DNA of 32,458 bases, taken from the NCBI GenBank assembly GCA_937124575.1, contig CAKZKY010000325.1, forward strand, positions 1 to 32,458, in the 5' to 3' direction. Position numbers and translations under genes: made by a program. Of the stretch, positions 823 through 32,156 are shown in pieces. This stretch comes from an uncultured Pseudomonadota bacterium. Lineage in GTDB: Bacteria; Desulfobacterota; BSN033; UBA1163. Under the pieces are notes generated by a model. That model was not told the origin of the DNA and searched no databases. It saw only the letters and a program-made list of their open reading frames with translations. Position 1 is the first letter of the stretch, and each line of letters begins with the position of its first letter.

Positions 823-1305
823 ATGATCAAGAAGATTTCGGTCTATCCGGAGAAGTGCACAGCATGTCGCCTGTGCGAGTTGGGTTGTTCATTCAAAAAG
901 ATAGGGGAGTTTAACCCCATTGCCTCCAGGGTGCGCGTCTCCATTTTTGGGGAGGATGCCTTTTATACGCCAATCATCTGTACCCAATGTGATGAAGCCT
1001 GGTGCCTAAAGGCATGCCCGAGTGGTGCTATCTCACGAGACGTTGGAGCGAAGGTGGTGAAGATCGATCCAAACCGATGTGTGGGTTGCAGGATGTGTAC
1101 GATGGCCTGTCCTTTCGGAACGATCACCTATTACACGCCAGAAGGGAAGGCGATCAAATGCGATGAGTGCGATGGTCAACCCGAGTGTGTCCTTTTCTGC
1201 CCGACTGGGGCATTGAAGTATGAGGAGGAGTCCACTCCCACACGATTGAAGCGAGTGGCCACTGCGCGAAAGCTCGAATCTTCCTCAAAGGAGGTGCAGC
1301 CATGA
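823..1305 (+). CDS. aorA: AOR electron-transfer subunit, HycB-like 4x[4Fe-4S] ferredoxin
   Basis: A 160-residue cytoplasmic ferredoxin with four cysteine groups: CTACRLCELGC, CTQCDEAWCLKACP, CVGCRMCTMACP and CDECDGQPECVLFCP. That is enough for four [4Fe-4S] clusters, as in HycB/DMSO reductase B-type subunits. It is followed at once by the catalytic AOR subunit (4-bp ATGA overlap) and then an FAD protein. This is the order described for the AorABC aldehyde oxidoreductase of Aromatoleum, where AorA wires the tungsten subunit to the flavin subunit. The start is supported by GAAAGGAGG. The last cluster motif and tail differ from the two other ferredoxins in this window, which resemble each other more. 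Confidence 0.85.
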   Translation: MIKKISVYPEKCTACRLCELGCSFKKIGEFNPIASRVRVSIFGEDAFYTPIICTQCDEAWCLKACPSGAISRDVGAKVVKIDPNRCVGCRMCTMACPFGTITYYTPEGKAIKCDECDGQPECVLFCPTGALKYEEESTPTRLKRVATARKLESSSKEVQP

Positions 1306-3104
1306 AGGGATGGATTGGAAAGATATTGAGAGTTGATCTCACCAAGGGTGAGTGGAAGGCAGAAGATTTGGACCGAAATTTAGCGCAGAAATTTATCGGC
1401 GGAAGGGGTCTCGGTTCAAAGATCCTCTACGATGAGATCGATCCAAAGATCGACCCCCTCAGTTCAAATAATAAGTTGATCATGGCCACCGGACCTCTGA
1501 CAGGGACAAGCGCCTCTGCGGCAGGGAGATATATGGCCATCACCAAATCTCCACTGACTGGGACGATCGCTTGCTCTAATTCGGGCGGCCAATTTGGAGC
1601 AGAACTTAAGTTCGCAGGATTCGATCTGATCATTGTCGAAGGTAAAGCAAAAGAACCGGTCTATCTCTATGTGGAAGATGGAAAGGTTGAAATCAGGGAT
1701 GCCAAGCATCTTTGGGGAAAGACGACCCATGAAACGACAGACCAGATCCTTTCAGAGACCGATATGGATGCGAGGGTGGCCTGTATCGGTCCAGCTGGAG
1801 AGAAGCTGGTCCGATTTGCTTGCATCGTCAATGAGAAGCATCGAGCTGCAGGTCGCTCCGGTGTTGGCGCTGTGATGGGTTCGAAGAACCTGAAGGCGAT
1901 TGCCGTGAAAGGAACTGGAAGTGTAAGCGTTGCTAATAAAGAGGCATTTCGAAAGGCAACGCTCGATGGTTTTCAGAAGGTCAAGGCTAACCCGGTCACC
2001 TCGGCTGGATTGCCTGCCTATGGAACCGCCATCCTGGTCAATGTGATCAATCAGCATGGACTCTTTCCCACAAGGAATTTCCAGCAGGGAGTTTTTGAAG
2101 GGGCTGAAAAGATCAGTGGAGAGAGCATTGCCGATCAGATCCTAGTACGAAATCGGGCCTGTTTCGCCTGTCCTATTGGCTGCGGGAGGGTGATCCGGGT
2201 GACCGATCCCAAGTATGCTTGTTTTGGCGAGGGGCCTGAATATGAAAGTGACTGGTCGCTTGGAGCCTGTTGTGGTGTGGACAATATTAATGCCATTGGG
2301 AAAGCGAACTACCTTTGCGACATCTTAGGCATGGATCCCATCTCTACGGGTGTGACGATCGCCTGTGGAATGGAGCTGTTCCAGAGGGGGATTCTCTCAA
2401 CCAAAGAGGTGGGAGGTTCCCTCAACTTTGGAGATGCGGATACCATGTTGGAGATGGTGAGGGCAATTGGTTACCGTGAGGGATTTGGAGATCTATTGGC
2501 AGAGGGGTCCTACCGATTGGCTGAGAGATTCGGCCATCCCGAGTATTCGATGAGCGTGAAGAAGCAGGAATTCCCGGCCTATGATGGAAGGGGAGCGCAG
2601 GGCATGGGGCTTCAGTATGCGACCTCAAACCGTGGAGCCTGCCATGTAAGAGGCTATATGGTGGCTGCGGAAATTATGGGTTCTCCGCAAAAACTCGATC
2701 CGTTTGATACAGAGGAGAAGGCCGGGTGGGACAAAGGGTTTCAGGATACCACAGCCGTGGTGGACTCATCAGGGATCTGTCTCTTCAATACCTTTGCTTT
2801 TGGTGCTCCAGAGATTCTCGAATACCTCAGGGCTGCCACTGGCATGGAGATGACCCTTGAGGATTTGATGAAAGCCGGTGAGCGAATCTGGAATCTGGAG
2901 AGGCTCTTTAATCTTAAAGCAGGTCTGACGGGGAAAGATGATTGCCTGCCCGAACGGTTTACCAAAGAACCCATGCCAGAAGGTCCTGCCAAAGGGCATG
3001 TGGTGCGATTGGAAAAGATGCTCCCTGAATATTATGAGCTTCGGGGGTGGGATAAAGATGGCGTGCCAACAAAAGAGAGATTGAAGGAATTGGGTTTAGA
3101 ATAG
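1302..3104 (+). CDS. aorB: tungsten-containing aldehyde:ferredoxin oxidoreductase, catalytic subunit
   Basis: 600 residues, the usual AOR length. It interconverts aldehydes and carboxylic acids at a W-bis-pterin site. The N-terminal pterin-binding half has FIGGRGLGSKI and GAVMGSKNLKAI. The [4Fe-4S] ligands are C287, C290 and C294 (CFACPIGC) and C493 (DSSGICLFN). E313 and H448 fall where AOR-family active-site Glu and His are expected (GPEYES and ACHVRG). It overlaps aorA by 4 bp and is followed by a hairpin and the FAD subunit, so an AorABC-type complex is likely. In an aromatic-acid degrader it may oxidise aromatic aldehydes or reduce acids; the substrate cannot be read from the sequence. 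The conserved Cys/Glu/His set argues for a true AOR rather than the benzoyl-CoA reductase subunit BamB. Confidence 0.9.
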   Translation: MKGWIGKILRVDLTKGEWKAEDLDRNLAQKFIGGRGLGSKILYDEIDPKIDPLSSNNKLIMATGPLTGTSASAAGRYMAITKSPLTGTIACSNSGGQFGAELKFAGFDLIIVEGKAKEPVYLYVEDGKVEIRDAKHLWGKTTHETTDQILSETDMDARVACIGPAGEKLVRFACIVNEKHRAAGRSGVGAVMGSKNLKAIAVKGTGSVSVANKEAFRKATLDGFQKVKANPVTSAGLPAYGTAILVNVINQHGLFPTRNFQQGVFEGAEKISGESIADQILVRNRACFACPIGCGRVIRVTDPKYACFGEGPEYESDWSLGACCGVDNINAIGKANYLCDILGMDPISTGVTIACGMELFQRGILSTKEVGGSLNFGDADTMLEMVRAIGYREGFGDLLAEGSYRLAERFGHPEYSMSVKKQEFPAYDGRGAQGMGLQYATSNRGACHVRGYMVAAEIMGSPQKLDPFDTEEKAGWDKGFQDTTAVVDSSGICLFNTFAFGAPEILEYLRAATGMEMTLEDLMKAGERIWNLERLFNLKAGLTGKDDCLPERFTKEPMPEGPAKGHVVRLEKMLPEYYELRGWDKDGVPTKERLKELGLE

Positions 3105-3121
3105 AGAATTCAGTTCTTTTT

Positions 3122-3154
3122 GGTAGGGGGCAGACCTTGGGTCTGCCCCCTACC
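3122..3154. terminator. strong hairpin inside the aor operon
   Basis: A perfect 15-bp GC-rich stem (GGTAGGGGGCAGACC, 3122-3136, against 3140-3154) with a 3-nt TTG loop, followed by TTTTCCTT. It lies between aorB and aorC. It could attenuate transcription into aorC or protect the aorAB mRNA; it also resembles mobile REP-like hairpins. Confidence 0.65.
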
Positions 3155-3173
3155 TTTTCCTTGAGGAGCGGAT

Positions 3174-4445
3174 ATGCCAAGAAAGCGGAAAAAGCGGGTG
3201 GTTATTATCGGCAACAGTGCAGCTGGTCTTTCAGCCTTAGAAGCTTTTAGAAATCGGGATAGGGATTCAAAAGTTATCATGATTGATAGGGAACCGGTGT
3301 TAGCTTATTCCCGGACGATTACTCCCTATTTTATCATGGGGGGTGTTAAGCAGGAGGAAGACCTCTTTTTGCGGACCAAAGATTATTACAAAGATTTCGG
3401 CGTCAAAACACTTTTTGGTGAAGAGGCCCTTGGAATTGACATGAGATTTAGGGAAGTCCTGTTAGACAGTGGGAAGAAAGAACCTTTCGATCTTCTTCTG
3501 ATTGCAACAGGAAGTTCTCCCATAAAACCCAAGATGCAGGGAGCAAAACCTGAGGGGATAGGTGTGCTAAGAAGCCTTGCCGATGCAAAGTATTTAAAAG
3601 AGATGAAGCCAAAAGTGAAGAAAGTTCTTTTTTTAGGTGGCGGATTGGTCTCCCTCCAAACGCTTCAGGCCATGTTTACGAGGAGCGGACAGTATACCCT
3701 CGTGGTGAAATCAGATCAGATTTTCTCTCAAACCATGGATCGAGATGGAGCTGAGATGATCGAAAATCACTTAAAGAAAATGGGGGTTCAGATCATCAAG
3801 GGAAAAGAGGTCGTTCGATTAAAAGGGGTAAAAGGTTCGAGGGTGGCCATCCTCGATGATGGGCAAGAGATCGAGGCCGATTTTATCTTTGCAGGGAAGG
3901 GAGTCAGACCCAATATTGATTTCCTCCGAGGCAGCGGAATCAAGAGCCGGAATGGAATCTTCGTCAACGACCGTATGGAGACGAATGTCGAAGGAGTCTA
4001 TGCGGCTGGCGACGTAGCCCTGGCAGCGGACTTCTTCTCAAAAGAGAATGTGAGCTATGGCCTATGGCCTTCTGCTGTGGAACAAGGGGAGATTGCGGGA
4101 AAGAATATGGCAGGTCAAAAGGAGATCTATCCAGGAAACCTCAGAATGAACGTGACCCGAATCTTTGCCATACCGATTGCCTCCATTGGAGAGGTTCGAT
4201 CTTCAAAGGTTGCAGAATCACTTGTCAGAAAAGACGAGAAGAGGAACATCTATCGCAAAATCTGTCTCGATGAAAAAGGAATCCTCATTGGAGCCATACT
4301 GATTAACCAGGTGGATGACCTTGGGGTGCTCCATGGACTCATCCGTGGGCGAAAAGAGATAGGTGCCCTCAAAGCGAGTTCTATATGGAGATCACCGATC
4401 AACTATGGTTTTGTGTATAAGAATATATTGCAAGGGAAAATATGA
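3174..4445 (+). CDS. aorC: FAD/NAD(P)-dependent oxidoreductase, AOR flavin subunit
   Basis: A 423-residue pyridine nucleotide-disulfide oxidoreductase fold protein. It has an N-terminal FAD motif (VVIIGNSAAGLSALEA, near residue 9), a central NAD-binding glycine motif (VLFLGGGLVSLQTLQA, near residue 160) and the second FAD motif with YAAGDVA near residue 280. No redox-active CxxxxC pair is visible, so it resembles NADH-dependent flavin subunits rather than disulfide reductases. By analogy with AorC it would let NAD(P)H exchange electrons with the tungsten subunit through AorA. It starts 69 bp after aorB, beyond a strong hairpin, with TTGAGGAG as ribosome binding site. An independent nitrite- or rubredoxin-reductase-like role is possible, but the context favours AOR. 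Confidence 0.82.
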   Translation: MPRKRKKRVVIIGNSAAGLSALEAFRNRDRDSKVIMIDREPVLAYSRTITPYFIMGGVKQEEDLFLRTKDYYKDFGVKTLFGEEALGIDMRFREVLLDSGKKEPFDLLLIATGSSPIKPKMQGAKPEGIGVLRSLADAKYLKEMKPKVKKVLFLGGGLVSLQTLQAMFTRSGQYTLVVKSDQIFSQTMDRDGAEMIENHLKKMGVQIIKGKEVVRLKGVKGSRVAILDDGQEIEADFIFAGKGVRPNIDFLRGSGIKSRNGIFVNDRMETNVEGVYAAGDVALAADFFSKENVSYGLWPSAVEQGEIAGKNMAGQKEIYPGNLRMNVTRIFAIPIASIGEVRSSKVAESLVRKDEKRNIYRKICLDEKGILIGAILINQVDDLGVLHGLIRGRKEIGALKASSIWRSPINYGFVYKNILQGKI

Positions 4446-7335: not shown

Positions 7336-8289
7336 ATGAAGTCTTACCGATACCTTTACGGTCCTGTCCCTTCAAGACGATTAAGAAGATCACTCGGAAT
7401 TGATCTCGTCCCCCATAAGATCTGCACTTATAACTGCATCTATTGCCAGATTGGAAAAACAACCTTAAAGACGATGACTCGGAGAGCCTATGTTCCTTCC
7501 GAAGAAATCCTTGAAGAAGTGAAGCACTTCTTAAAAGAGGAGCATCTTTCCATTGATTATCTCTCCCTGAGCGGGTCAGGAGAGCCGACCCTCCACTCTC
7601 AAATCGGTTCGATCATTGAAGGAATAAAGGCGGTCACTTCCATTCCTGTTGCGGTCATTACCAATGGATCGCTTCTCAATCTGGAGGAGGTTCGAATGGA
7701 CTTGCTCCATGCGGATGTCATTCTTCCTTCGCTGGATGCTGTCTCATCAGAGGTTTTTTCAAAGATAAACCGCCCAGTAGAAGAGCTTTCTGTAGAGGCT
7801 GTGATGGAGGGTCTGGTTCAATTCAGGTCTATCTACAAAAGCAGAATCTGGCTGGAGATCCTCTTTTGTAAAGGGGTCAACGATGGTGAGGATGAGCTTT
7901 TACGCATGAAAGAGACCATTGCCCGAATCAAACCCGATTGGATCCATATTAATACGGTGGTTCGGCCACCCTCTGAAGAATGGGTAACTCCCTTGAGTCA
8001 GGAGGAATTGGAGAAGATAAAAGGGTTCTTTGGGGATAAGACTTCCATCATCTCAGAGTTTGACCGCCATCATCTCCACCTGGCCGAAGGAGATATTAAA
8101 CAGATGATCTTGAAGATTTTAAGAAGGAGACCGCTTTCCTTCAGCGATCTCTCAAAAGGGATGGGAATGAGGAAGGATGAGCTTGATGAATATCTTGCCA
8201 CCCTCCTTCGAGAGGGAATGATTCAGTCTCGTCGTATTGGGAATTCCATTTACTTTGAAATCTTAAATCGTAAAGACCAAAGCTTTTGA
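7336..8289 (+). CDS. radical SAM protein with C-terminal winged-helix segment
   Basis: 317 residues. The N-terminus YGPVPSRRLRRSLGIDL and C30-x3-C34-x2-C37 (CTYNCIYC) place it in the COG0731-like radical-SAM group; SLSGSGEPTLH is the SAM-binding glycine segment. Residues from about 255 on (LKILRRRPLSFSDLSKGMG and after) look like a winged-helix domain. The reaction is unknown; related proteins are annotated as Fe-S oxidoreductases. The upstream gap is filled by a hairpin repeat, and a strong bidirectional terminator follows, so it appears to be the last gene of the rightward unit. Confidence 0.8.
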   Translation: MKSYRYLYGPVPSRRLRRSLGIDLVPHKICTYNCIYCQIGKTTLKTMTRRAYVPSEEILEEVKHFLKEEHLSIDYLSLSGSGEPTLHSQIGSIIEGIKAVTSIPVAVITNGSLLNLEEVRMDLLHADVILPSLDAVSSEVFSKINRPVEELSVEAVMEGLVQFRSIYKSRIWLEILFCKGVNDGEDELLRMKETIARIKPDWIHINTVVRPPSEEWVTPLSQEELEKIKGFFGDKTSIISEFDRHHLHLAEGDIKQMILKILRRRPLSFSDLSKGMGMRKDELDEYLATLLREGMIQSRRIGNSIYFEILNRKDQSF

Positions 8290-16012: not shown

Positions 16013-17170
16013 ATGATATTATTTCGCTGAATTGGATGCCAAAGGAACATGAATTGAAGAACCATAGTCGTTATGGTTCGGAGCATTGGGGAACAGAGCC
16101 CCCATGTACGGTTTTTGAGAAAAGGCCATTGAAGGATCCTAAGGAAAATGTCATCCCAGGGCTCTATAATGCCTGGATCAGGCTCAATAACCCAGCCCAT
16201 TACAACTCTTACACAACGGAGATGGTGAAGGGGTGATCGCCGGATTTGAAAATGCCTCAACCGACCGCTCGGTGGTGGCCGTTGTATTTACCGGCACAGG
16301 GCCCTATGCCTTCTGCACCGGTGGAAACGCCAAGGAGTATTCGGAATATTACAGCAAGAGGCCTGAGGAGTACGGGGCTTACATGGAACTTTTCAACAAT
16401 ATGGTTGACTCCATTCTGATGTGCAAGAAACCTGTGATCTGCAGGGTGAATGGAATAAGAGTGGCTGGAGGACAGGAGATCGGCACGGCCTGCGACCTGA
16501 CCGTTGCCTCTGACCTTGCTGTGTTAGGACCGGCTGGCCCCCGCCATGGCTCTGCTCCGGGGGGAGGCGCTTCGGACTTCCTTCCCTTCTTCCTTTCGAT
16601 CGAGGATGCCATGTAAAGTTGCATCAGCTGTGAGAAGTGGTCTGCCTATAAGATGTGGCGAAAGGGCCTAAAATCTCCAAGTGCGTTCCGGTTCTTAAGG
16701 ATGAGAAAGGGAATTGGGTTCGAAATCCTCAGGTCATTACCGACACCTATGTGAAAGACGGCGAGCTTGTCTATGGAGAGTTTAAAACCGGAGATGAGTT
16801 CAAAAAGGCACGTGAGTGGGTGAATAGCAAGTTGAAGAACAACGAGTATGATTTTGCCCTTCTGGATGCCGAAGTGGAGAAGATTTGCTGGACCTTTGCC
16901 AATCTCTTTCCAAGCTGCTTGATGATGTCTATCGATGGTATCCGGAACAAGAAGAAGTTCTTCTGGGATCAGATGAAGAATCCGAACCGGCACTGGTTAG
17001 CCGCTAACATGATGGGAGAGGCTTTCCTCGGGTTTGGTGCATTCAACATGAAGAAGATCACGGGGGCCGACACCATCGATTTCATCAAGTACCGTCAGAA
17101 CATTGCTGAAGGCAAGCTCATGGATGAGACCTTCTTCGAGGAAGTGTTGGGAAAACCTCAGAGCAAATAA
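16013..17170 (+). pseudogene. oah: 6-oxocyclohex-1-ene-1-carbonyl-CoA hydrolase (Oah/BamA), broken by frameshifts and a stop
   Basis: Three consecutive reading frames together give one near-complete BamA-type crotonase, the ring-opening enzyme that makes 3-hydroxypimeloyl-CoA. Piece 1 (to 16236) ends in YNSYTTEMVKG; adding one G to the GGGG run at 16230-16233 continues into VIAGFENAS. Piece 2 has AFCTGGNAKEY, VICRVNGIRVAGGQEIG and PRHGSAP, then an in-frame TAA at 16614-16616. After it CISCEKWSAYKMW is still readable, until one missing A in the run 16670-16673 shifts to piece 3 (ISKCVPVLKDEKGNW to the end). The N-terminus is also unclear: ATG at 16013 is out of frame by one base, and ATG at 16036 has no ribosome site. 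It is either a decaying gene or locally poor sequence. Confidence 0.82.
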
Positions 17171-18980: not shown

Positions 18981-20303
18981 ATGATTATCTTTACCCACCA
19001 TACGGGTGAACCCCATGGTATACTGGGTGCCCAACTGGCAGCGACCTTTTTCCAGCAGAAACTTTCCATCCCCTCCATCGTGATCGGAATAGAGAGAAAC
19101 TTTTTAAAGGAGAGGCTTTTCCATTTCATAGATGAGTATTACAGTGAGAAGGAGAGGTTAATTGCCTTCACTCATCTCTGCGGAAGAAAAGACCTGATCG
19201 AGCTGATCCGAGAAGTGAGGGAGCAAGGATATAAAACCCTTTTGGGTGGACCTCAGACCCGACAGGATTATGAAGGGGAACCAGAGGCTGATCGTTACTC
19301 CTATCGTTTCAAAGGGCTGAGATCGAGTGTCGATCTGGCTTTCCAGGGGCCGGTGGATGGTTTTAGATCGGACCATCTGAAGATCCAGAATAGACTTTTC
19401 GAGTTTCCATGGATCAAGGAGCGATACCTCGAAGTTGATTGGGGAAACCTCTATACCTTTTCGGATACCCTTAAGAAGCACGATGTTCAGGTGGCCCAGG
19501 TACTTCACTCGATCGGTTGTCCCTATTCCGGGAGGACACAGACCGTGGTCCTTCCTCCGCCAGTGGATCTTAAAGAAAGGGTTCCCGAATTGAGTGTTCA
19601 GAGTCAAGGGTGTATCTTCTGCGATGTCTCAAAGGATAAAGGCTTTCATGGTCTTGTGGAGAAGGATAGGGTGATTGCTCAGATTAAGAGGTTGCCAGAA
19701 TCGGATGGGAAGAAGATTCCTTTTGAGCTGATTGACGAATATCCTCTTGGCTCATTAGGCAGGCTAATTGAGACGGTTGGGGATCACCGGATCAGGCTTT
19801 CTCAGATTAATCTCGTCTGTCGGGTCGATGACATCAATCGCCACGCTTCCGAGCTTTCGGAGATCGTTTTAAAGGCCAAATCGCTGGATGTGAAGATCAT
19901 GTTTGCTTCGATCGGGTTCGAATCATTTTCAGATCGTTTACTTCGATATTTCTGCAAAGGGATCAGATTCGAAGAGGTCGTGAAATGTGTTGAAATACTC
20001 CGCCGTCTTAAAGAGCAATTCGGAGATTATCTCCTCTATCGGAGAGATGAGGGAGCCAATCATGGATTTATACGACCAACACCCTGGGATGATGGGGAGA
20101 CCATGCAGGAGGTAGATCGGAATATTTTTCTTTACCGATTCTTTGAGGATATCCTCCCCGAGCATAGCACACCATTGATTATCCATCATGCTTCCTATCT
20201 CGGAGACTGGATACGGGCGATAGAATCAAAGATCGGGATCTTATTTGGCCGTGAAGGGACATGGATCGAATGGTGGAATCCCTCTTCTAAACGTAGAGGG
20301 TAG
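18981..20303 (+). CDS. radical SAM protein with N-terminal B12-binding-like domain and unusual Cys spacing
   Basis: 440 residues. Residues 1-120 look like a Rossmann-type cobalamin-binding domain (LGAQLAATFF, REQGYKTLLGGPQTRQDY), but the DxHxxG cobalamin motif is absent. The cluster-binding cysteines appear to be C180 (HSIGCPYS) and C211/C214 (QSQGCIFCDV), a C-x30-C-x2-C arrangement instead of C-x3-C-x2-C. A second half with NLVCRVDDINRH and FASIGFESFSDRLL follows the radical-SAM barrel pattern. The C-terminus holds HHASYLGDW. The reaction is not recognised. It lies between the dch/SDR unit and the second AOR unit, with its own leader, so its pathway is uncertain. Confidence 0.75.
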   Translation: MIIFTHHTGEPHGILGAQLAATFFQQKLSIPSIVIGIERNFLKERLFHFIDEYYSEKERLIAFTHLCGRKDLIELIREVREQGYKTLLGGPQTRQDYEGEPEADRYSYRFKGLRSSVDLAFQGPVDGFRSDHLKIQNRLFEFPWIKERYLEVDWGNLYTFSDTLKKHDVQVAQVLHSIGCPYSGRTQTVVLPPPVDLKERVPELSVQSQGCIFCDVSKDKGFHGLVEKDRVIAQIKRLPESDGKKIPFELIDEYPLGSLGRLIETVGDHRIRLSQINLVCRVDDINRHASELSEIVLKAKSLDVKIMFASIGFESFSDRLLRYFCKGIRFEEVVKCVEILRRLKEQFGDYLLYRRDEGANHGFIRPTPWDDGETMQEVDRNIFLYRFFEDILPEHSTPLIIHHASYLGDWIRAIESKIGILFGREGTWIEWWNPSSKRRG

Positions 20304-20551: not shown

Positions 20552-20833
20552 ATGGCTAACGAGAAAGAAGGACTCTCAACAGCGGAGAGCCTACGGAAGA
20601 CTCGTACCTATGGTCAGGTAAGGTGTCACAATCCCAGTTGTATGGGTCGATTGGTGCCTAAACCCGGGGATTCGACCGTGAAATGTCCTGTCTGTCATAT
20701 GGAATGGCGTGTCGCCTGGGTGAAAGATGGTTTTCCCCGGATCAGAGGCCCGGTGTGGGATGTGAACAAAAGGTTGGCCGAACAGGAATTCGAAAGAAAG
20801 ATGAAGGAGGTTAAGAAAGATGGCCCTAAATAG
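20552..20833 (+). CDS. small zinc-ribbon protein overlapping the second AOR gene
   Basis: 93 residues, with cysteines in CHNPSC (x4 spacing) and CPVC that would form one zinc ribbon, followed by EWRVAWVKDGFPRIRGPVWDV and a charged helical tail. I do not recognise the family. The start at 20552 follows AAAGGAGGTTGCT. Its end overlaps the AOR-2 start by 14 bp, so the two are translationally coupled and the protein may be an accessory subunit, metal chaperone or regulator of that oxidoreductase. It is the first gene behind the operator-flanked promoter. Confidence 0.75.
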   Translation: MANEKEGLSTAESLRKTRTYGQVRCHNPSCMGRLVPKPGDSTVKCPVCHMEWRVAWVKDGFPRIRGPVWDVNKRLAEQEFERKMKEVKKDGPK

Positions 20834-22760
20834 AAAGATAGCGTATATCGATCTCTCGACTGGTAAGATAGAGATTAAACCGATTCCTCTCGAACTGCGG
20901 AAAAAGTTTATTGGAGGAAGGGGACTTGATGCCTACTTGCTTTACAATCACACAAAGCAAGGGTGTGATCCCCTCGGGCCTGACAATACGCTTATGGTGA
21001 GCGGAGGGGTTTTATGTGCCACCCTGGCCTCAGCGACCTCGAGATGCCATGTGATGGCAAAATCTCCGTTGGGAGGATTGTTGGGAAGCGCAAATATGGG
21101 AGGGTTCTTTACTCCTGAGTTAGCTTGGGCAGGGTTCCATCATCTCGTGATCAAAGGGAAGGCGGATAAACCGGTTTACCTCTGGATCAAGAATGGCAAG
21201 ATTGAGATCCGTGACGCCAAAAATCTATGGGGCAAAACCGTTACCGACACCCAGTGGGCGATCCGGGAAGAGCTTGGAGACGATGATATTAAGAGTCTGG
21301 TCATTGGTCCGGCAGGCGAAAACTTGGTACGGTACGCCAATGTCATGACTGGGATTAAGAATTCAGGTGGAAGGACCGGAATGGGGGCGGTCATGGGCTC
21401 AAAGAATCTAAAAGCCATTGCCGCTCGCGGAACCATGGACATTAAGATCGCCTATCCCAAAGAAGCCCTTGAGTATAACAAACGATTTATAGATCAGATC
21501 ACAAGCGCCAAAGTGAACCAGACCCAGGGAACCCTGGGGACCCCTTTTATTTGGGGTGCTACAAACTCCTGGGGTGGAGTCCGGACCAGAAACTTCCAGT
21601 ATAACCAGATGCTCTATTGTGATGAGATTGAGCCCGAATCCATAGATGAGAATTGCACTAAGACGATCGGACCCTACCACATGACAGGCTGCTTTGGCTG
21701 TCAGGTCCACTGCCGTGCCAAATATAAGATTCCTACTGGGCCTTATGCAGGAATCTATGATGAAGGGCCAGAGTATACTTCTCAGGGTGCTTTCTGCTCA
21801 GAGCCCGATATTCCAAGCCTGGAAAATCTGCTGGTGGCGAATCACCTGGTGAATCAGTGGGGTGTGGATAATTTGGAGATCGGAAGCCTCATCTCTTGGG
21901 CGATGGAGCTCTATGAGCTAGGAATTCTCACGAACAAGGAGACGGATGGTCTCGAATTGAAGTTTGGCAGCAGTGAGGCGCTTCTGGAGATGATTGAAAG
22001 GATCTGCTTTAGAAAAGGTTGGTTGGGTAATGTCCTGGCTGAAGGCGGGATCATTGCCGCTGAGAAGATTGGAAAGAACTCCTTCGATTATCTGATTCAG
22101 GTCAAGGGGGTTAGCAATCTTCATTCTGATGAGCGGGCAACGCCTGCTCTTGCCCTGAATATTGCAACCGCTTCTCGTGGGTCAGACCATTTGAGGAGCC
22201 GTCCAGCCATTGACCTATACCATTTGCCACAGGAAGTGTTGAGAAAGATTTACAGTAGCCCTGTACCTTACGATGGTCCATTGAGTTCGGAACATACAGA
22301 ATATATCGGTAAGCCGTGGCAGGTCTTCTGGCATGAGAACTGTTATATGGCTGTGGATTGCCTTGGCATCTGTAAGTATCATACCACCTTTCTCGGTGCA
22401 ACGCTTCCTAACTTCGAAGATTGGTCCAGAGTGCTTTACTACAATACGGGGCTGGAGATGACCCCTCGGGAGATTTGGGATGCTGCTGTGCGAGCCAACA
22501 TGTTGGAGCGACTCTTTAACCTTCGTGAAGGATTGACAAGATACGACCTCAAAAAGGGTGATATGCTCAATCACCGCTACTTTGATGAACCTTGCCGAAG
22601 AGGCGCCCTCGATGTCATCGGGAAGGTCATCGATCGAGAAAAATTTGAGAAGATGATTGATGAGTTCTATGAGTATAAGGGCCTGGATAAAAATGGCGTT
22701 CCGAAACCGGAGACGCTCAAAAATCTCGGGCTGGATAACGAACCATCCCACTTACTGTAA
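20820..22760 (+). CDS. second aldehyde:ferredoxin oxidoreductase-family tungsten enzyme
   Basis: 646 residues, about 45 longer than AorB upstream. W-pterin AOR family: FIGGRGLDAYLL, GAVMGSKNLKAIAARG; cluster ligands C291, C294 and C298 (CFGCQVHC) and C518 (DCLGICKYH); likely active-site E318 (GPEYTS) and H457 (RGSDHLRSR). Order and ferredoxin partner recall BamBC of class II benzoyl-CoA reductase, but the retained AOR-type residues make an aldehyde (or other carbonyl) substrate more likely than a role as BamB. It is coupled to a zinc-ribbon gene in front and followed by a HycB-like ferredoxin. Regulated, by inference, by the IclR protein at 31386. The substrate is unknown. Confidence 0.85.
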   Translation: MALNRKIAYIDLSTGKIEIKPIPLELRKKFIGGRGLDAYLLYNHTKQGCDPLGPDNTLMVSGGVLCATLASATSRCHVMAKSPLGGLLGSANMGGFFTPELAWAGFHHLVIKGKADKPVYLWIKNGKIEIRDAKNLWGKTVTDTQWAIREELGDDDIKSLVIGPAGENLVRYANVMTGIKNSGGRTGMGAVMGSKNLKAIAARGTMDIKIAYPKEALEYNKRFIDQITSAKVNQTQGTLGTPFIWGATNSWGGVRTRNFQYNQMLYCDEIEPESIDENCTKTIGPYHMTGCFGCQVHCRAKYKIPTGPYAGIYDEGPEYTSQGAFCSEPDIPSLENLLVANHLVNQWGVDNLEIGSLISWAMELYELGILTNKETDGLELKFGSSEALLEMIERICFRKGWLGNVLAEGGIIAAEKIGKNSFDYLIQVKGVSNLHSDERATPALALNIATASRGSDHLRSRPAIDLYHLPQEVLRKIYSSPVPYDGPLSSEHTEYIGKPWQVFWHENCYMAVDCLGICKYHTTFLGATLPNFEDWSRVLYYNTGLEMTPREIWDAAVRANMLERLFNLREGLTRYDLKKGDMLNHRYFDEPCRRGALDVIGKVIDREKFEKMIDEFYEYKGLDKNGVPKPETLKNLGLDNEPSHLL

Positions 22761-22769
22761 TCATAAACG

Positions 22770-22850
22770 AATAGAACGAATGGAAACGAATGTCACGAAT
22801 TGTGATTTATTCGTGAAATTCGTTCTTATTCGTGTGATTCGTGACATATG
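22770..22850. repeat. imperfect hairpin repeat, GAACGAAT-word type
   Basis: The left arm GAACGAATGGAAACGAATG and CACGAATT pairs imperfectly with the right arm ATTCGTGAAATTCGTTC and ATTCGTGTGATTCGTGAC. It fills the gap between the AOR-2 and ferredoxin genes, within a likely operon. Confidence 0.65.
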
Positions 22851-22865
22851 AAAGGAGAGAAGTCA

Positions 22866-23375
22866 ATGGAACCGATGGGTAAAGTTCTTACGATCAATCC
22901 TGAACGATGCACCGGCTGTAGACTCTGTGAGCAGGTCTGTTCAGTCTTTCATGACGGTGTTTCCAATCCTGCCCGAAGCCGGATCAAAATCGTGAAATGG
23001 GAATCTGAAGGAATTTATGTTCCGATGTCCTGTCAACAGTGTCAGGACGCCCCCTGTATGATCGTCTGTCCTGTGAAAGCCATTTCCCGAGACGAGAGTC
23101 TGAATCGGGTGATGGTGAACCATAATATCTGTATCGGCTGCCGCTCCTGCGTGACCGTCTGCCCCTTTGGAGCGATGGGGTTTAATGTGATTGATCGAAA
23201 GAATTTTAAGTGTGATCTCTGCGATGGCGATCCCCAGTGTGTTCGTTTCTGTGAGATTAAAGCTGTGGATTATGTGGATGCGGATCAGGTGGCGATTGCT
23301 AAAAAGAGAGCAGCTGCCGAGAAGATTACTGCGGCCCAGAGGCAGGCAATAGCTTTAGCATCAGAATCACATTAG
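22866..23375 (+). CDS. HycB-like 4x[4Fe-4S] ferredoxin, partner of AOR-2
   Basis: 169 residues with four Cys groups: CTGCRLCEQVC, CQQCQDAPCMIVCP, CIGCRSCVTVCPFG and CDLCDGDPQCVRFC. A basic-acidic helical tail follows. It resembles the ferredoxin at 29590-30078 (shared SxxHxGxSNPxRSRI, KW, CDGxPQC, KAVxxVxAD) more than AorA at 823. It probably receives electrons from AOR-2 and passes them on. I start at 22866, after AAAGGAGAGAAGTCA; the ATG at 22848 lies upstream of that ribosome site. Last gene of this unit; convergent with the lys operon. Confidence 0.85.
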   Translation: MEPMGKVLTINPERCTGCRLCEQVCSVFHDGVSNPARSRIKIVKWESEGIYVPMSCQQCQDAPCMIVCPVKAISRDESLNRVMVNHNICIGCRSCVTVCPFGAMGFNVIDRKNFKCDLCDGDPQCVRFCEIKAVDYVDADQVAIAKKRAAAEKITAAQRQAIALASESH

Positions 23376-23505: not shown

Positions 23506-23536
23506 AAGAAGGGGCTGGTCGAACCAGCCCCTTCTT
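23506..23536. terminator. strong bidirectional terminator between ferredoxin and lysJ
   Basis: A perfect 14-bp stem AAGAAGGGGCTGGT (23506-23519) against 23523-23536 with a 3-nt loop. It overlaps the last two bases of lysJ and would end both convergent units. Confidence 0.75.
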
Positions 23537-24692
23537 AAATGAGGGCCTCTTTCATCACAGATAAAACCCTATCAATCTCTTCGGCGGTGATGATGAGGGG
23601 AGGAAGAAGTCGGATCACTGTGGGACCTGCAAGCAGGACAAGAATTCCTCGATCCATCAATTTCTGAACGTATGGGCCAGCCTTTTCTTTCAACTCAATG
23701 CCAAGCATGAGGCCAAGACCTCTCACCTCCCTGATCTTATCGCTTTGAATTGCCCTCAATCCATTCAGAAAGTATTCGCCCAACTCTTTTGCCCTTTCTG
23801 GAAGTCGTTCTCGGACGATGATCTCCAGCGAGACCAGTGCAGCAGCACAGGCAAGAGGATTTCCTCCAAAGGTGGAGGTATGGCTTTTAACTGGAACACG
23901 AATTGCGTTTGAACAGAGCACAGCTCCCATGGGGATGCCCCCTGCAAGCGATTTGGCCACGCAGAGCATATCCGGCTCAACAAACTGCTCGCAGGCAAAG
24001 AGGGTTCCTGTCCTACCAAAACCTGTTTGCACTTCGTCAAGGATTAAAAGGATTCCCCTCTCACGGCAAAGTCTCCGGACCTTCTCAAAATAGGGTTTGT
24101 CCCCAACTCGGACTCCGCCTTCTCCCTGAACCGGTTCGAGGAGAATGGCTGCTGTTTCTTCGCTCACCACTTCACTCAATTTTTCGAAGTTGTTAAAAGG
24201 TACATGCTTGGTTCCAGGCATCATGGGAATAAAGGGCTTTCGATATTCCTCTCCCCAGGTGGCAGCCAGTGCTCCAAAGGTTTTTCCATGGAAACCTCTC
24301 ATTGCTGCGATGATTTCGGTCTTTCCTGTTGTGGCTCGAGCAAATTTGATGGCTCCCTCAATGGCTTCCGCTCCGGAATTGCAGTAGAAGACCCGTTTCA
24401 GCCCTTGGGGGCTTAGAGAGATCAATCTTTCAGAAAGCATCGCTCGGACAGGGTTATAGAAGAGACCGTAGCAGTTGGAAAGGGTGAGATACTGCTCGTA
24501 GATGGCTTTGGCCACTTCCTCACGGGCATGGCCAATATTGGAGACGCCTACATTGGAGGCGCAGTCAATATATTCCCTGCCCTGATCGTCATAAAGCCTG
24601 GCACCTTTTCCCCTTACCAGGATGAGGTTTCGGCGGGGGTAGACCGGAAGCTCATATCGGTCTTCAAGCCCTTTAATATCGAGGCTGGTCAT
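23535..24692 (-). CDS. lysJ: LysJ/ArgD-type class III aminotransferase of the LysW pathway
   Basis: 385 residues, PLP-dependent. K247 in CVAKSLAGGIP is the expected Schiff-base lysine; ILDEVQTGFGRTG holds the PLP-binding Asp, and CNSGAEAIEGAIKFAR is typical of acetylornithine-type aminotransferases. It would transaminate the LysW-bound semialdehyde to LysW-lysine (or LysW-ornithine). The start at 24692 overlaps the lysZ stop by ATGA, so translation is coupled; an in-frame extension to 24785 runs inside lysZ and reads as nonsense. Last gene of the operon. Confidence 0.88.
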   Translation of the reverse strand: MTSLDIKGLEDRYELPVYPRRNLILVRGKGARLYDDQGREYIDCASNVGVSNIGHAREEVAKAIYEQYLTLSNCYGLFYNPVRAMLSERLISLSPQGLKRVFYCNSGAEAIEGAIKFARATTGKTEIIAAMRGFHGKTFGALAATWGEEYRKPFIPMMPGTKHVPFNNFEKLSEVVSEETAAILLEPVQGEGGVRVGDKPYFEKVRRLCRERGILLILDEVQTGFGRTGTLFACEQFVEPDMLCVAKSLAGGIPMGAVLCSNAIRVPVKSHTSTFGGNPLACAAALVSLEIIVRERLPERAKELGEYFLNGLRAIQSDKIREVRGLGLMLGIELKEKAGPYVQKLMDRGILVLLAGPTVIRLLPPLIITAEEIDRVLSVMKEALI

Positions 24693-25480
24693 TCGATTAC
24701 CGTCCCAATTCCTAAGAGCGCGTCCGCAATGGGATGTTCTCTTCGGCCATCTGCAATGATCACGCGGCTCGCTCCAAGCTCGCAAAGTTTTCGAACCGCC
24801 ATCATCTTTCGCTTCATCCTACCATCCACTTGCTGTTCCCTGGCTTCGAGCTCAACCACTGGAATCCTTCGAATCAGGCTCGTTTCATCTTCCTTGTTCT
24901 CAAGAAATCCCGGGGCTTCGATCAAGTTGATCACCGTATGGGCGCGCATCGTTTTCTGAATGACCCTGACGACATCATCGTTTTCCGTATTGATGGCCAT
25001 ATTCTGTTCGTCAATAATAGGCACGGTGAGCACAGGGACATATCGATGATCGAGCAAAAGATCGAGAAGCCCCTTATTGATCGCTTCGGGTTTTCCGGAG
25101 TAATCCCTGAGGATTTTTAGCTTGCCGTCCTGGTAGACCCGGATCCCCTTATTGCGGATTCCCTGAATACACCTTCCGTCCAGACCCGAGAGGCCAACCG
25201 CATTGATGCCGTGTTGGTGGCAGAGTTCAACGATCCTTTTATTCCTTACCCCAGCATAGGCCATCATCATCTGGTCAATCAGGTCTTCGTCGGAATAGAC
25301 GCTCGAGACTCCAGAGACTGAAGTGACGATCTTCCTGGGCTTTCCCAGTTCTTCGGCTAATTTGTCTCTAAGGGCGTTTGCACCATGGACAATAATGAAC
25401 TTCTCTTTGATCTGTGCCAGATCCTGAATGATGCCCTGCAAATTGATTTCTGCCCCTCCGCCGATTTTAATAAGGATCAT
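24689..25480 (-). CDS. lysZ: LysZ/ArgB-type amino-acid kinase acting on LysW-bound substrate
   Basis: 263 residues of the amino-acid kinase family: N-terminal MILIKIGGGAEIN, IIVHGANALRDKL, NTENDDVVRVI, and GRMKRKMMAVRKLCELGASRVIIADGR near the C-terminus. It would phosphorylate the side-chain carboxylate of LysW-gamma-aminoadipate (or LysW-glutamate). The company of lysW, lysX, lysY and lysJ separates it from an ordinary acetylglutamate kinase. It starts one base after the stop of the amidotransferase gene and overlaps lysJ by 4 bp. Confidence 0.88.
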   Translation of the reverse strand: MILIKIGGGAEINLQGIIQDLAQIKEKFIIVHGANALRDKLAEELGKPRKIVTSVSGVSSVYSDEDLIDQMMMAYAGVRNKRIVELCHQHGINAVGLSGLDGRCIQGIRNKGIRVYQDGKLKILRDYSGKPEAINKGLLDLLLDHRYVPVLTVPIIDEQNMAINTENDDVVRVIQKTMRAHTVINLIEAPGFLENKEDETSLIRRIPVVELEAREQQVDGRMKRKMMAVRKLCELGASRVIIADGRREHPIADALLGIGTVIE

Positions 25481-26116
25481 TTACCACTCCCTAATGGTTT
25501 CATTGGGTATCGTTTGCCAGCCCTCTTCAGAGGGAAAGACCTCCGAGCAGATGACGAGAGGTGGCCCCTCTTTATATCGCATCGTGAAGTAGTCTTCGTC
25601 GCCGACAAAGTAGGTCGAGAGGTAGATCTGATTTTCCTTCACGAGAATGATATTCATTCCTCGGATCGATCTTGTCCTTTTACGGATCAAGCCAACTGCC
25701 TTTCTCAGGGCAGTGAAGGTGTCGCCGCTGTCGAATCGTCGAATGAAGTTAAAGATCTTCTCCCCACCGATTCGCCCCTGTTCTTTGATTCGTACCCCCC
25801 TCAGCTCACCATTGAAGATGAAGATTCTTTCGCCATCGGTGAAGGGCATGTTGTTTTCGATGACGATATCCTTGTCCTCAAAGGCGCTTCGGGCATGGGC
25901 AATGAGAAGAGGGGTTTTGGGGAACTGGGAGAGATCATCTTCCCATACCGGACAGATATTCTTATAGAGTTGCCATTTTTGATCAACGTCCTTCCAGGCG
26001 TATCCCCAGCCGTGTCCCTGATATTCTTTACTGTTTTTGGCGATAAGGGCGAATGGGGTCAGATAATCTGCAGGAGCAAATGGTTGCTCTGATCGAACGG
26101 CAAGAAGTCGACACAT
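25481..26116 (-). CDS. class II glutamine amidotransferase-like protein (YafJ type)
   Basis: 211 residues. The N-terminal MCRLLA gives a Cys2 nucleophile after Met removal; GHGWGYAW, LLIAHARSAF and IFIFNGEL are the glutaminase-fold motifs of the YafJ/GATase class II group. There is no synthase domain, so it is a free glutaminase or transfers ammonia to a partner. It lies inside the lys operon, 0 bp from lysZ and 166 bp from lysY, which is unusual. It might have an amide or isopeptide hydrolase role, since nothing in the window is an obvious LysK (the hydrolase that frees lysine from LysW). That idea is inference only. Confidence 0.82.
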   Translation of the reverse strand: MCRLLAVRSEQPFAPADYLTPFALIAKNSKEYQGHGWGYAWKDVDQKWQLYKNICPVWEDDLSQFPKTPLLIAHARSAFEDKDIVIENNMPFTDGERIFIFNGELRGVRIKEQGRIGGEKIFNFIRRFDSGDTFTALRKAVGLIRKRTRSIRGMNIILVKENQIYLSTYFVGDEDYFTMRYKEGPPLVICSEVFPSEEGWQTIPNETIREW

Positions 26117-26282
26117 AAGGTTTCAATTCGTATTGAGCCAAATAATCCTGGGTTTTTGGTTATGGCTACGAGGCCCGTTTCGGTTATTGGTAACGGTTAC
26201 GTGTTAAGAATAAAAGAACGACAGATGTATCCTTTTATCAACGATACGGGCATCGTGACCGTTGAACGAAACCCATTTCTAT
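26117..26282. other. spacer inside the lys operon
   Basis: No gene seen. It contains GGTTATTGGTAACGGTTACG and partly complementary ACGGGCATCGTGACCGTTG, an imperfect hairpin of the word-repeat kind. Confidence 0.4.
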
Positions 26283-27305
26283 CTAAATGGGGTGGAGACC
26301 CATGAAATTGAGGCCTGCTGTTTCTTCAAAACCGCACATCACATTCATGGCATGGACAGCCTGTCCAGATGCTCCTTTCATGAGATTGTCAATGGCCGAA
26401 ATCACGACGAGTCTGTTTCCCTCTAATTCAAAACCGATATCGCAGTAGTTGCTTCCCACCAAGATCTTTGGTTCGGGAAGTCGATAGATCCCCTGTTTCT
26501 CCTTGACAATTCGGATGAAGGGCTCCTGTCCATAAAATTGGCGAAAGGTCGTCCAGATCTCTTTTTCTGTTGTTCCCGGTTTGACAAAGAGGTGGGCTGT
26601 CACTAAGATCCCCCGTACCATCTCAATGGAAGTGGCTGAGAAATGGACTGGGTAGCCGAGTTCCTGTTCCATCTCGGCAATATGCCGGTGGCCAGTCGGT
26701 TTATAGGAGCGAACGCAACCGCTTCGTTCTGGATGATGCGTGGCCTCGCTTACGGTATTCCCTCCTTCTGAGGAGCCACACTTGGCCTCCGCCACCACAG
26801 GCATAGTTGTATCCACAATCCCCTTTTTGAAAAGAGGCCAGAGGGGCAAAATGGTCGCTGTGGCATTGCACCCTGCACCCGTTATATAGCGGGCCTTTTT
26901 AATTTCTTCCCGGTGAAGTTCAACATTTCCATAGACGAACTCAGAGAGCTTATCTGGTCGGGGATGTTCCACACCGTACCATTTCAAGTACGCCGCAGGA
27001 TCTTTCAACCTGAAATCGGCAGAGAGGTCCACGATCTTTTCAGCCAGACCGCTCAGTTCATCGAACCTCTGCATGAACTGGGTGTGAGGAAGAGAGACGA
27101 AGAGGAGGTCCACCTTCTCCAATTCCTTGATCGTGCAGAAGTTAAGGGAGGTCCTTTTCCGTAGATTTGGATGAATTCTCGTAACCGGTTTTCCCGCATT
27201 GCGCTCGGATGTCACCTGGTGAACCTCGACTCCTGGATGGTCCAGAAGGAGCCTGAGAAGTTCGCCACCGCCATAACCTGATCCACCAATGATTGAGACC
27301 CTCAT
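26283..27305 (-). CDS. lysY: LysY/ArgC-type reductase of LysW-bound acyl phosphate
   Basis: 340 residues: N-terminal NADP-binding [17 protein letters not shown], active-site Cys146 in [30 protein letters not shown] and the [14 protein letters not shown] His segment. It resembles N-acetylglutamyl-phosphate reductase, but the surrounding lysW/X genes suggest it reduces LysW-aminoadipyl (or glutamyl) phosphate to the semialdehyde. The start overlaps the lysX stop by 4 bp (ATGA). Confidence 0.9.
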
Positions 27306-28144
27306 CTCCTTCCCACCTCCAGCACATAGCCCACGACTTTGGCCGGAATATTGACTCCCGTCGTGTCAATGCTATTTCGGAACTCCATCGTATAGTTGAC
27401 CTCATTAATCGAAAGACCCTCGGACGTCTCAAAGACATCGATGGCGACAACACCTCCTCCTACAGCTTTGGCTGCACGAACGGAGATGTCGTGAAGTTCA
27501 TCGGTCACCGGGCAGTTCGAGGCTTTTCCTCCCCGTGCCGTATTGGTGATCCAGTGTTCAGATTGGCGGTAGATGGCACAGATGCAGCTATCTCCAACGA
27601 CAAAGCTTCGGATATCTCTACCCCGCTTATCCACATATTCCTGGATATAGAAGATAGAGTGGTGATAACTTCCTAAGATCTCTTTATGCTCCAAGATGGC
27701 TTCCGCCGCATCGCGGTCGTTGACTTTCGAGAGAAGCCTTCCCCACGAACCGGTATTGGGTTTGATCACACAGGGATAACCGAGTTCATTCATGGCCGCC
27801 AGTGCTGATTCAGGGGTAAATGCCAGATAACAGCGAGGCGTTCGAATGCCCGCCTTGATGATAGCCTGGGTGGTCAGAAACTTGCTACCACACGTTTCTG
27901 CCACCTGGTAGGTATTGACCGTTGGAATCCCAAAGTCCTCGAAGACCTTAATCGCATGAATGGCTCTGGAATGGTTCACACACCGTTCGATAACGACATC
28001 GAAGGAGAAGTCGTTTCGGTGTAGATTGAAGACGATCTCTCTGTCATCGATCGGCACCACCTCTACCCCTGGTCGGCTGCGAAACTCATCCAACAGGAGT
28101 TTCTCCTCTTTCCGAATAATGGAATGTATCAGTCCTACTCTCAT
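27302..28144 (-). CDS. lysX: LysX/ArgX-type ATP-grasp ligase (alpha-aminoadipate or glutamate to LysW)
   Basis: 280 residues with the RimK-like ATP-grasp fold: [45 protein letters not shown] (quoted in part) for the nucleotide site, [20 protein letters not shown] and the metal site [12 protein letters not shown]. It attaches the amino group of the substrate to the C-terminal Glu of LysW (EDWGE) encoded just upstream. The TMEF(R/K)N form recalls Thermus LysX, favouring alpha-aminoadipate and therefore lysine, but I cannot exclude glutamate. The start at 28144 (MRVGLIHS) follows a GGAGTGGAG site; 280 residues is the length I recall for Thermus LysX. Confidence 0.9.
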
Positions 28145-28292
28145 CGTCTCCACTCCAGATTTGGCGAAAGACAAACAGTCGATCGAGATTTGTTGAAGCC
28201 GAATCTCCTATCACATCATTTGACGATTCTATTTTCAATGGACGTGTCACAAGGTGGGTACTTCCGAGATGTTGCTCAATGGGTTAAAGCTG
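28145..28292. other. spacer between lysW and lysX
   Basis: About 150 bp without a credible gene; I see no clear promoter or hairpin. The ribosome site of lysX is at its end. Confidence 0.4.
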
Positions 28293-31385: not shown

Positions 31386-32156
31386 ATGAAAAAGAGCACT
31401 TATTCCGCTCCTTCGGTCAAAAAAGCCTTTAAAATACTTCATACCATTGCAAATTCCTCCTCAGGCTTGGGTGTCAGTGAACTTGCCAAACAGTTGAAGA
31501 TCGGAAAGAGTACGGTTCATGGGATCACCTCTTCACTGGAGGCGCTGGGCGTTTTGGTTCGTGATCCAATCGATAAACGATATAATATCGGATACACCCT
31601 ACTGGAATTAGTAAGAAAGAGTTACGGTCGAATCGAATGGAGAGAGGTCGCAAGGCCCTCGATGGAACGTTTGATGGAAAAAGTGGGGGAGACAATCTTC
31701 CTTGGCATTATGAACGGAGATCACATCACCATCTTAGATGTTGTGGAGTCCCATCACGAAATGAAGATCACTGCGCCCCCTGGAACCCGCTTGCCGCTTC
31801 TTGCAGGCGCAACGGGTAAGGTCTTCCTCAGCCAACTCGATGAGAAGAGGGTGAAGGAGATCATCCAGAAGGTGGGGTTGACCCGATTTACAGCAAATTC
31901 AGTGACCGATCCTAAACTCTTTCTTAAACAGATTGAAGAGACCAGAAAAAAAGGGTATGCGATTGACGATGAGGAGTATCTCGTTGGCGTAAGGGCCATT
32001 GCTGCTCCAATTCAAAGGGGATCCCTGCCTCCGGCTGCCATCTGGGCGGTCGGATTTAGCTCAAGCCTCAATGATCGGAAGATGGAAAGAGTGACCCTTG
32101 AAATCCAACAAGCAGGCCTCGAGATCAGCCACTCACTTGAAGGGCACCGGATGTGA
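31386..32156 (+). CDS. IclR-family transcriptional regulator
   Basis: 256 residues. An N-terminal winged helix-turn-helix (about residues 8-65: VKKAFKILHTIA, VSELAKQLKIGKSTVHGITSSLE) and a C-terminal IclR effector domain (GETIFLGIMNGDHITILD, ATGKVFLSQL, GYAIDDEEYLVGVRAIAAPI). These regulators bind small organic acids or aromatic metabolites. The palindrome in front of its own start recurs at the AOR-2 promoter and before nrfD, so these are likely targets. The ligand is unknown; an aromatic acid or aldehyde metabolite fits the setting but is inference. Confidence 0.9.
   Translation: MKKSTYSAPSVKKAFKILHTIANSSSGLGVSELAKQLKIGKSTVHGITSSLEALGVLVRDPIDKRYNIGYTLLELVRKSYGRIEWREVARPSMERLMEKVGETIFLGIMNGDHITILDVVESHHEMKITAPPGTRLPLLAGATGKVFLSQLDEKRVKEIIQKVGLTRFTANSVTDPKLFLKQIEETRKKGYAIDDEEYLVGVRAIAAPIQRGSLPPAAIWAVGFSSSLNDRKMERVTLEIQQAGLEISHSLEGHRM

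Follow-up and report, generated by a model that had tools for sequence, protein, structure and literature searches.

Radical-SAM enzymes are often recognized by the cluster motif CX3CX2C, and one of them, QueE, possesses no B12-like domain. One source presents CX3CX2C as the usual motif rather than a defining one, with QueE, ThiC, HmdB and PhnJ departing from it, and treats the CX14CX2C of QueE as the canonical motif in which one loop is extended (PMC4389238). Another source gives the cluster motif of TsrM as CX3CX2C (PMC8992657). The radical-SAM protein that we analyzed here resembles QueE in presenting an extended loop within the cluster motif, but the insert of QueE is shorter. It also resembles OxsB, TsrM and TokK, in which a Rossmann domain is followed by a radical-SAM barrel (structure matches with Z-scores of 21.2, 17.8 and 14.1, respectively); compared with the CX3CX2C of TsrM, its loop gains about 27 residues, and the Pfam domain PF02310 is undetected. 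MgmA (the MCR glutamine C-methyltransferase, TIGR04014) presents a similar fold over the whole length (Z 20.6), but our protein remains far below the TIGR04014 cut-off. AprD4 is also alike in fold (Z 20.6) and appears to differ in substrate and in cluster loop. Literature searches for CX30CX2C, CX31CX2C, CX29CX2C and CX27CX2C, in a corpus from which subscription journals were mostly missing, returned no match in these spellings, and CX14CX2C was found.

The window, i.e., the whole stretch of 32,458 nucleotides that was analyzed, encodes this protein on its forward strand, and we mapped the following features in the gene:

18981-20303, + strand: radical-SAM gene, 440 aa, with the split cluster motif C180-x30-C211-x2-C214; the reading frame is open at these coordinates
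18981-19355, + strand: N-terminal Rossmann (B12-domain-like) part, about residues 1-125, from the secondary structure of the model and fold matches starting at residue 1; the end is approximate
19185-19187, + strand: Arg69, invariant in 26 of 26 aligned rows, in the loop that follows strand 3 and from which class 1 enzymes bring a residue under the cobalt; putatively of similar role
19488-20285, + strand: radical-SAM barrel, about residues 170-435, from the model and fold matches; both ends are approximate
19518-19520, + strand: Cys180, putative first cluster cysteine, directly after the predicted strand 177-179, based on its conservation and on alignment ranges
19521-19601, + strand: insert, residues 181-207; two strands are predicted, 186-191 and 204-209, the latter slightly overrunning the insert
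19611-19622, + strand: Cys211-x2-Cys214 in GCxFCD, putative second and third cluster cysteines, based on conservation and profile alignments

The first-pass annotation had considered C180, C211 and C214 to be the only plausible cluster cysteines, arranged with C-x30-C-x2-C spacing, and the comparison with relatives agrees on both counts. These residues are identical in all 27 aligned loci and no further cysteine is invariant, the next best position being residue 67 (20 of 27 loci). The second gap, from C211 to C214, measures two residues in 27 of 27 loci. The first gap ranges from 29 to 32 residues among the 26 rows of our alignment A2 (31 residues in 16 rows, 30 in five, 29 in four and 32 in one), and the string C-x3-C-x2-C was found nowhere in the sequence of any of these rows. 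The A2 rows present 38-74% identity to the window protein and share 77 invariant columns, the three cysteines among them. The 27 loci exclude L001, L003 and L004, whose contigs are already covered by L044, L047 and L041, as well as the partial or decayed loci L064, L065, L067, L068 and L069 and the weak matches L037-L040; A2 additionally drops L043, which is close to L042. From this pattern we infer that C180, C211 and C214 all bind one [4Fe-4S] cluster.

The window protein scores just under the cut-off of the Pfam model PF04055 (28.7 bits for a cut-off of 29.5), which was detected at E ≤ 0.1 in 24 of the 26 members (best E-value, 7.6e-10). No NCBIfam model scored above its cut-off for the window protein, and on this ground we rejected its assignment to a known curated family; against the 26 members the best NCBIfam E-value was 4.4e-06, in a search read on E-values only and without comparison to cut-offs. 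For TIGR04014 (MgmA), the window protein reached 13.9 bits for a cut-off of 360, and weak profile matches were obtained at E ≤ 0.1 for 18 of the 26 members. Searching the PDB sequences with the window protein and with the profile yielded nothing significant (the best match of the profile was MgmA, with an E-value of 0.36), and a search of plasmids yielded no match. A pattern scan of genome contigs with the window protein returned six relatives, all from metagenome-assembled genomes, titled Thermodesulfobacteriota, Syntrophaceae, Deltaproteobacteria, Desulfobacterales, Desulfobacteraceae and, for one, uncultured bacterium. Matches to the single protein were found at E ≤ 0.001 in 13 of the 17 genomes of the order and in 29 of the 395 genomes of the phylum, and matches to the profile at E ≤ 1e-10 in 24 of these 395 genomes. 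Full-length members scored E-values of 7e-192 or better with the profile, and other radical-SAM proteins only reached values near 1e-4 with the single protein. The earlier suggestion of a distinct family is supported by the invariant cysteines, by the lack of any NCBIfam model over its cut-off and by this wide score gap. Our best reading is that these proteins form a radical-SAM family of their own, with an extended cluster loop and a B12-domain-like scaffold.

We built an AlphaFold2 model from A2 (pLDDT 92.4; pTM 0.90), which predicts a Rossmann domain and a radical-SAM barrel. The barrel of the model is the partial TIM barrel of the radical-SAM superfamily, and the predicted N-terminal Rossmann domain ahead of it is a trait of class 1 enzymes, with OxsB, TsrM and TokK among the whole-length matches. 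The highest-scoring whole-length matches in the PDB were OxsB, MgmA and AprD4, at the Z-scores given above, followed by CysS (Z 19.7) and MiaB (Z 19.3), and further matches included TsrM and TokK; Foldseek returned OxsB, MtaB, CysS, MgmA and MiaB at E ≤ 0.001. In a library of viral structures, the top match was a phage COG1032 protein (E 9e-10).

The order of elements assigned by DSSP to the model is a strand ending at residue 179, then C180, the strands 186-191 and 204-209, and C211. Two strands are thus predicted between the invariant C180 and C211, in line with the initial proposal of a loop opened by an insertion of about 27 residues. Mean conservation is 0.45 for residues 181-207, the lowest of the parts measured, relative to 0.71 for residues 170-180 and 0.75 for residues 208-225, as expected for an insert between two conserved half-sites; P194 is nevertheless invariant within it. 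Hydrophobic residues alternate in both predicted strands, and positions 189/191 and 204/206 are hydrophobic in 96-100% of the A2 rows. The equal length and symmetric placement of the two predicted strands suggest that they pair as a hairpin with its base at the cluster.

The motif DxHxxG carries the cobalamin histidine ligand, and its absence from the B12-like domain had been put forward as a further sign of a distinct family. The observation itself stands, as the string is found within the first 170 residues of only one of the 26 rows (L042) and is not conserved, but it adds little as an argument because no histidine ligand is involved when the cobalamin radical-SAM enzymes of class 1 bind their cobalamin. 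In the source that defines this class, OxsB, TsrM and TokK are described as holding cobalamin base-off without histidine, with the loop after strand 3 placing a residue under the cobalt, which in TsrM is Arg69 (PMC13331322). We estimate that our protein has a little less than an even chance of being a cobalamin-dependent enzyme, e.g., a methylase, with a divergent cobalamin domain. Its Rossmann domain and its top fold matches, OxsB and MgmA, are consistent with this, and so are the conserved residues S64 (24 of 26 rows), L66 (23 of 26) and G90 (26 of 26) and the invariant Arg69, located where TsrM has its own Arg69 under the cobalt. On the other hand, the B12-binding model PF02310, which is the usual marker of the class and not its definition, was detected at E ≤ 0.1 in none of the 26 members. 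It matched 10 of 10 controls, B12-type radical-SAM proteins taken from this genome, a contrast that is biased because these controls were found through a B12-type model. In addition, AprD4, whose Z-score equals that of MgmA, is not known to depend on cobalamin, nor to carry any in its B12-like domain. The resemblance to AprD4 and the lack of PF02310 matches among the members also lend credit to an enzyme that uses only SAM and the cluster and leaves its B12-like domain empty in the manner of AprD4. This second possibility is a serious one that we place somewhat short of even, as the conserved residues of the Rossmann loops suggest that something is bound there. The window enzyme is not filed as a cobalamin enzyme in this analysis.

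We further analyzed the genes downstream of the radical-SAM gene, which form an AOR operon:

20552-20833, + strand: 93-aa protein with four conserved cysteines, likely a metal site; adjacent to the AOR clade in 32 of 34 genomes that possess the two
20820-22760, + strand: AOR-family oxidoreductase, 646 aa, not BamB; presumably a tungsten enzyme, judging from its family
22848-23375, + strand: 4Fe-4S ferredoxin-like protein, probably the partner subunit of the AOR

BamB belongs to the AOR superfamily like the window AOR, but the latter is closer to aldehyde oxidoreductases, with 206 bits to the BamB chain 4z3w_A and 300 bits to the aldehyde oxidoreductase 9mqx_D. We rejected its identification as the benzoyl-CoA reductase BamB, since the same genome possesses a separate BamB (L157) that reaches 1141 bits to 4z3w_A. 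The 93-aa protein presents conserved STAE and GPVW blocks and matched nothing in Pfam or NCBIfam at E ≤ 0.001; the model obtained for it is weak (pLDDT 76.4; pTM 0.57) and the fold search gave no clear match (best E-value, 0.74). A second AOR set is located at 823-4445 and comprises a ferredoxin-like protein, an AOR (600 aa) and a pyridine nucleotide-disulphide oxidoreductase, a gene order reminiscent of AorABC systems. The window also contains another radical-SAM protein at 7336-8286 (PF04055, E 7.2e-17) and, on the minus strand at 23535-28174, LysW-type lysine/arginine genes: LysZ (NF010659), LysX (TIGR02144) and an argC-type reductase (TIGR01850), all over cut-off, and a LysJ/argD-like aminotransferase. 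An IclR-type regulator is found at 31386-32156, and members of its sequence cluster adjoin the radical-SAM gene in L005, L050 and L053.

The AOR was found within the same fetched stretch as the radical-SAM gene in 14 of the 27 loci, some of these stretches being short contigs. At the level of genomes, 22 of the 24 with a radical-SAM match (E ≤ 1e-10; 395 genomes searched) possess the AOR clade (at least 70% identity), and the 93-aa protein is present at E ≤ 1e-35 in 22 of these 24 as well. Once G170 and G300, whose copies are decayed, are removed from the 24, there remain 22 genomes in which the gene is intact or split between contigs; 20 of them possess the AOR clade, compared with 14 of the 373 genomes lacking such a gene. 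These counts overstate independence because the genomes are related and have a way of life in common, and exact P values were accordingly disregarded. The two genes lie on one contig in 11 of these 20 genomes and on separate contigs in nine, which indicates that the link does not stem from gene order alone. Of the 34 genomes that possess both the AOR and the 93-aa gene, 32 have the two as neighbors, no more than 58 bases apart, and in G015 and G372 they lie on separate contigs. An intact radical-SAM gene without the AOR clade was observed in G163 (98% complete) and G247 (68% complete). All these searches scored the best candidates of each genome, up to four for the radical-SAM protein, three for the AOR and 13 for the 93-aa protein.

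The reverse situation, in which the AOR of the clade is kept and the radical-SAM gene has decayed, was encountered in three genomes. G300 keeps scattered pieces of the gene, G170 presents its first 25 residues directly before its last 40, and in G015, whose AOR is cut by the contig end, about the first 20-33 residues are left upstream of the 93-aa gene. In 11 more genomes with the AOR clade, no radical-SAM copy was detected at E ≤ 1e-10. We searched for remnants beside the 93-aa gene of AOR-clade genomes, leaving out G321, and found none in G001, G002, G003, G012, G118, G155, G181, G241, G319 and G389, nor in G261. The decayed genes and the 11 AOR-clade genomes without a detected copy indicate that the AOR does not strictly depend on the radical-SAM enzyme. 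The hypothesis of a strict AOR maturase is weakened by the three genomes with a decayed gene, and the enzyme can be no more than an accessory of this AOR, whose retention does not require it.

Upstream of the radical-SAM gene, on the same strand, we identified had, which scores above the TIGR03201 cut-off, an oah gene that is broken, a dch-like gene that stays below its cut-off, and an SDR gene. The oah gene is interrupted at 16233-17170, where an ECH-like reading frame (16233-16616) is separated from the C-terminal part of TIGR03200 (16655-17170); an in-frame TAA was recovered in the genome search, and relatives possess intact copies. In the window and in three other loci (L041, L044 and L047), genes of the benzoyl-CoA route, namely had, oah, dch-like and SDR genes, precede the radical-SAM gene, and Oah was found in 20 of the 24 genomes with a radical-SAM match (two of the 24 being decayed). 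Together with the three genomes that kept the AOR and lost the gene to decay, these observations are compatible with a substrate that is a small molecule of the aromatic route, such as a coenzyme A ester, rather than a part of the AOR system, in which case the link to the AOR would reflect a shared way of life. This is conceivable, but we consider it appreciably less than an even bet. In the Oah test, which covered 71 hand-chosen genomes (67 of them within the 395), the intact gene is present in 17 of 30 Oah-positive genomes with the AOR clade but in only 1 of 17 without it (47 Oah-positive genomes in total). Moreover, G009, G039 and G365 possess the gene and the AOR without any Oah match at E ≤ 1e-60.

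The position of C180 relative to the barrel was assessed from profile and structure alignments. With hhalign, a comparison to nine B12-type rows (nine of the ten B12-type controls, L134 being left out; E 1.7e-11) placed the predicted strand 204-209 on barrel strand 1 and left the first motif cysteine without a partner. Taken at face value, this would make 204-209 the true first strand of the barrel, with C180 on an N-terminal extension, either not a cluster ligand or reaching the cluster from outside the loop. We regard this arrangement as improbable, given that C180 is invariant in the 27 loci and that the other alignments disagree with it. The comparison to 19 radical-SAM rows from the genome of the window, including two duplicates (L136 was lost from the initial 20 loci), reached an E-value of 2e-14 and matched C180 to the first motif cysteine and C211/C214 to the remaining two, with the insert unmatched; the placement of C211/C214 was the same with the B12-type rows. 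Among the 31 structure alignments ranked 20-50, several of which represent the same protein, 17 begin at model residues 167-172, 14 begin earlier and none begins at residues 173-210. For the RimO of T. maritima (2qgq), the alignment starts at model residue 168 and chain residue 136, and an ungapped start would bring C180 onto residue 148, which is the first CX3CX2C cysteine of RimO as counted in chain 4jc0, assuming the same numbering in 2qgq. The same offsets in HydE and mouse viperin lead C180 to residues 63 and 84, which we take to be their first cluster cysteines; a literature search for the cysteine numbers of viperin gave no match. Overall, the predicted order of strands and the ranges of the structure alignments favor a location of C180 near C211 and C214, as the first cluster cysteine. 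Finally, a degenerate radical-SAM protein that no longer binds a cluster, as the non-standard motif and the decayed copies in three genomes could evoke, is very hard to reconcile with 77 invariant columns, including the three cysteines, across 26 rows down to 38% identity.

The explanation that we consider fairly probable as a whole is that of a split-loop radical-SAM enzyme, built on a scaffold of the B12-domain class and serving an AOR module; the readings weighed above are not all mutually exclusive, and the chances that we assign to them do not sum to one. On a scaffold in which an N-terminal Rossmann domain precedes a partial TIM barrel, C180, located where barrel strand 1 ends, would hold one [4Fe-4S] cluster together with C211 and C214. 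The loop between the first two cysteines normally counts three residues; here it would accommodate an amphipathic beta-hairpin of about 27 residues, starting and ending at the cluster. With SAM bound to the fourth iron, a 5'-deoxyadenosyl radical would be formed, and the hairpin, probably positioned where the barrel opens, would cover it like a lid or offer a partner a surface to dock on. In benzoyl-CoA degraders, the enzyme probably works for the AOR module, whether it modifies a component of that system or converts a metabolite of the pathway. The conservation, the predicted fold, the strand order and the genomic linkage are what the comparisons show, and the radical chemistry, the role of the hairpin and the target are what we infer from them. 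For the function, which is the least secure part of our reading, a role in the AOR/aromatics module appears the most likely. A more specific version, in which the beta-hairpin splitting the cluster loop is a docking element and, in anaerobic aromatic degraders, the enzyme modifies either the AOR itself or its four-cysteine 93-aa partner within the AOR complex, is a speculative and rather unlikely proposal. In literature searches combining radical SAM with benzoyl-CoA reductase and BamB, the radical-SAM passage that was found concerns a BssD-type activase, and a search combining radical SAM with tungsten, aldehyde ferredoxin oxidoreductase and maturase retrieved no paper. If the proposed reading is true, a B12-domain radical-SAM scaffold can have its cluster loop opened by a whole hairpin without any change to the three cysteines, and counts of radical-SAM enzymes based on the motif would miss such enzymes. 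These results also name a candidate accessory enzyme for the AOR operon of benzoyl-CoA degraders.
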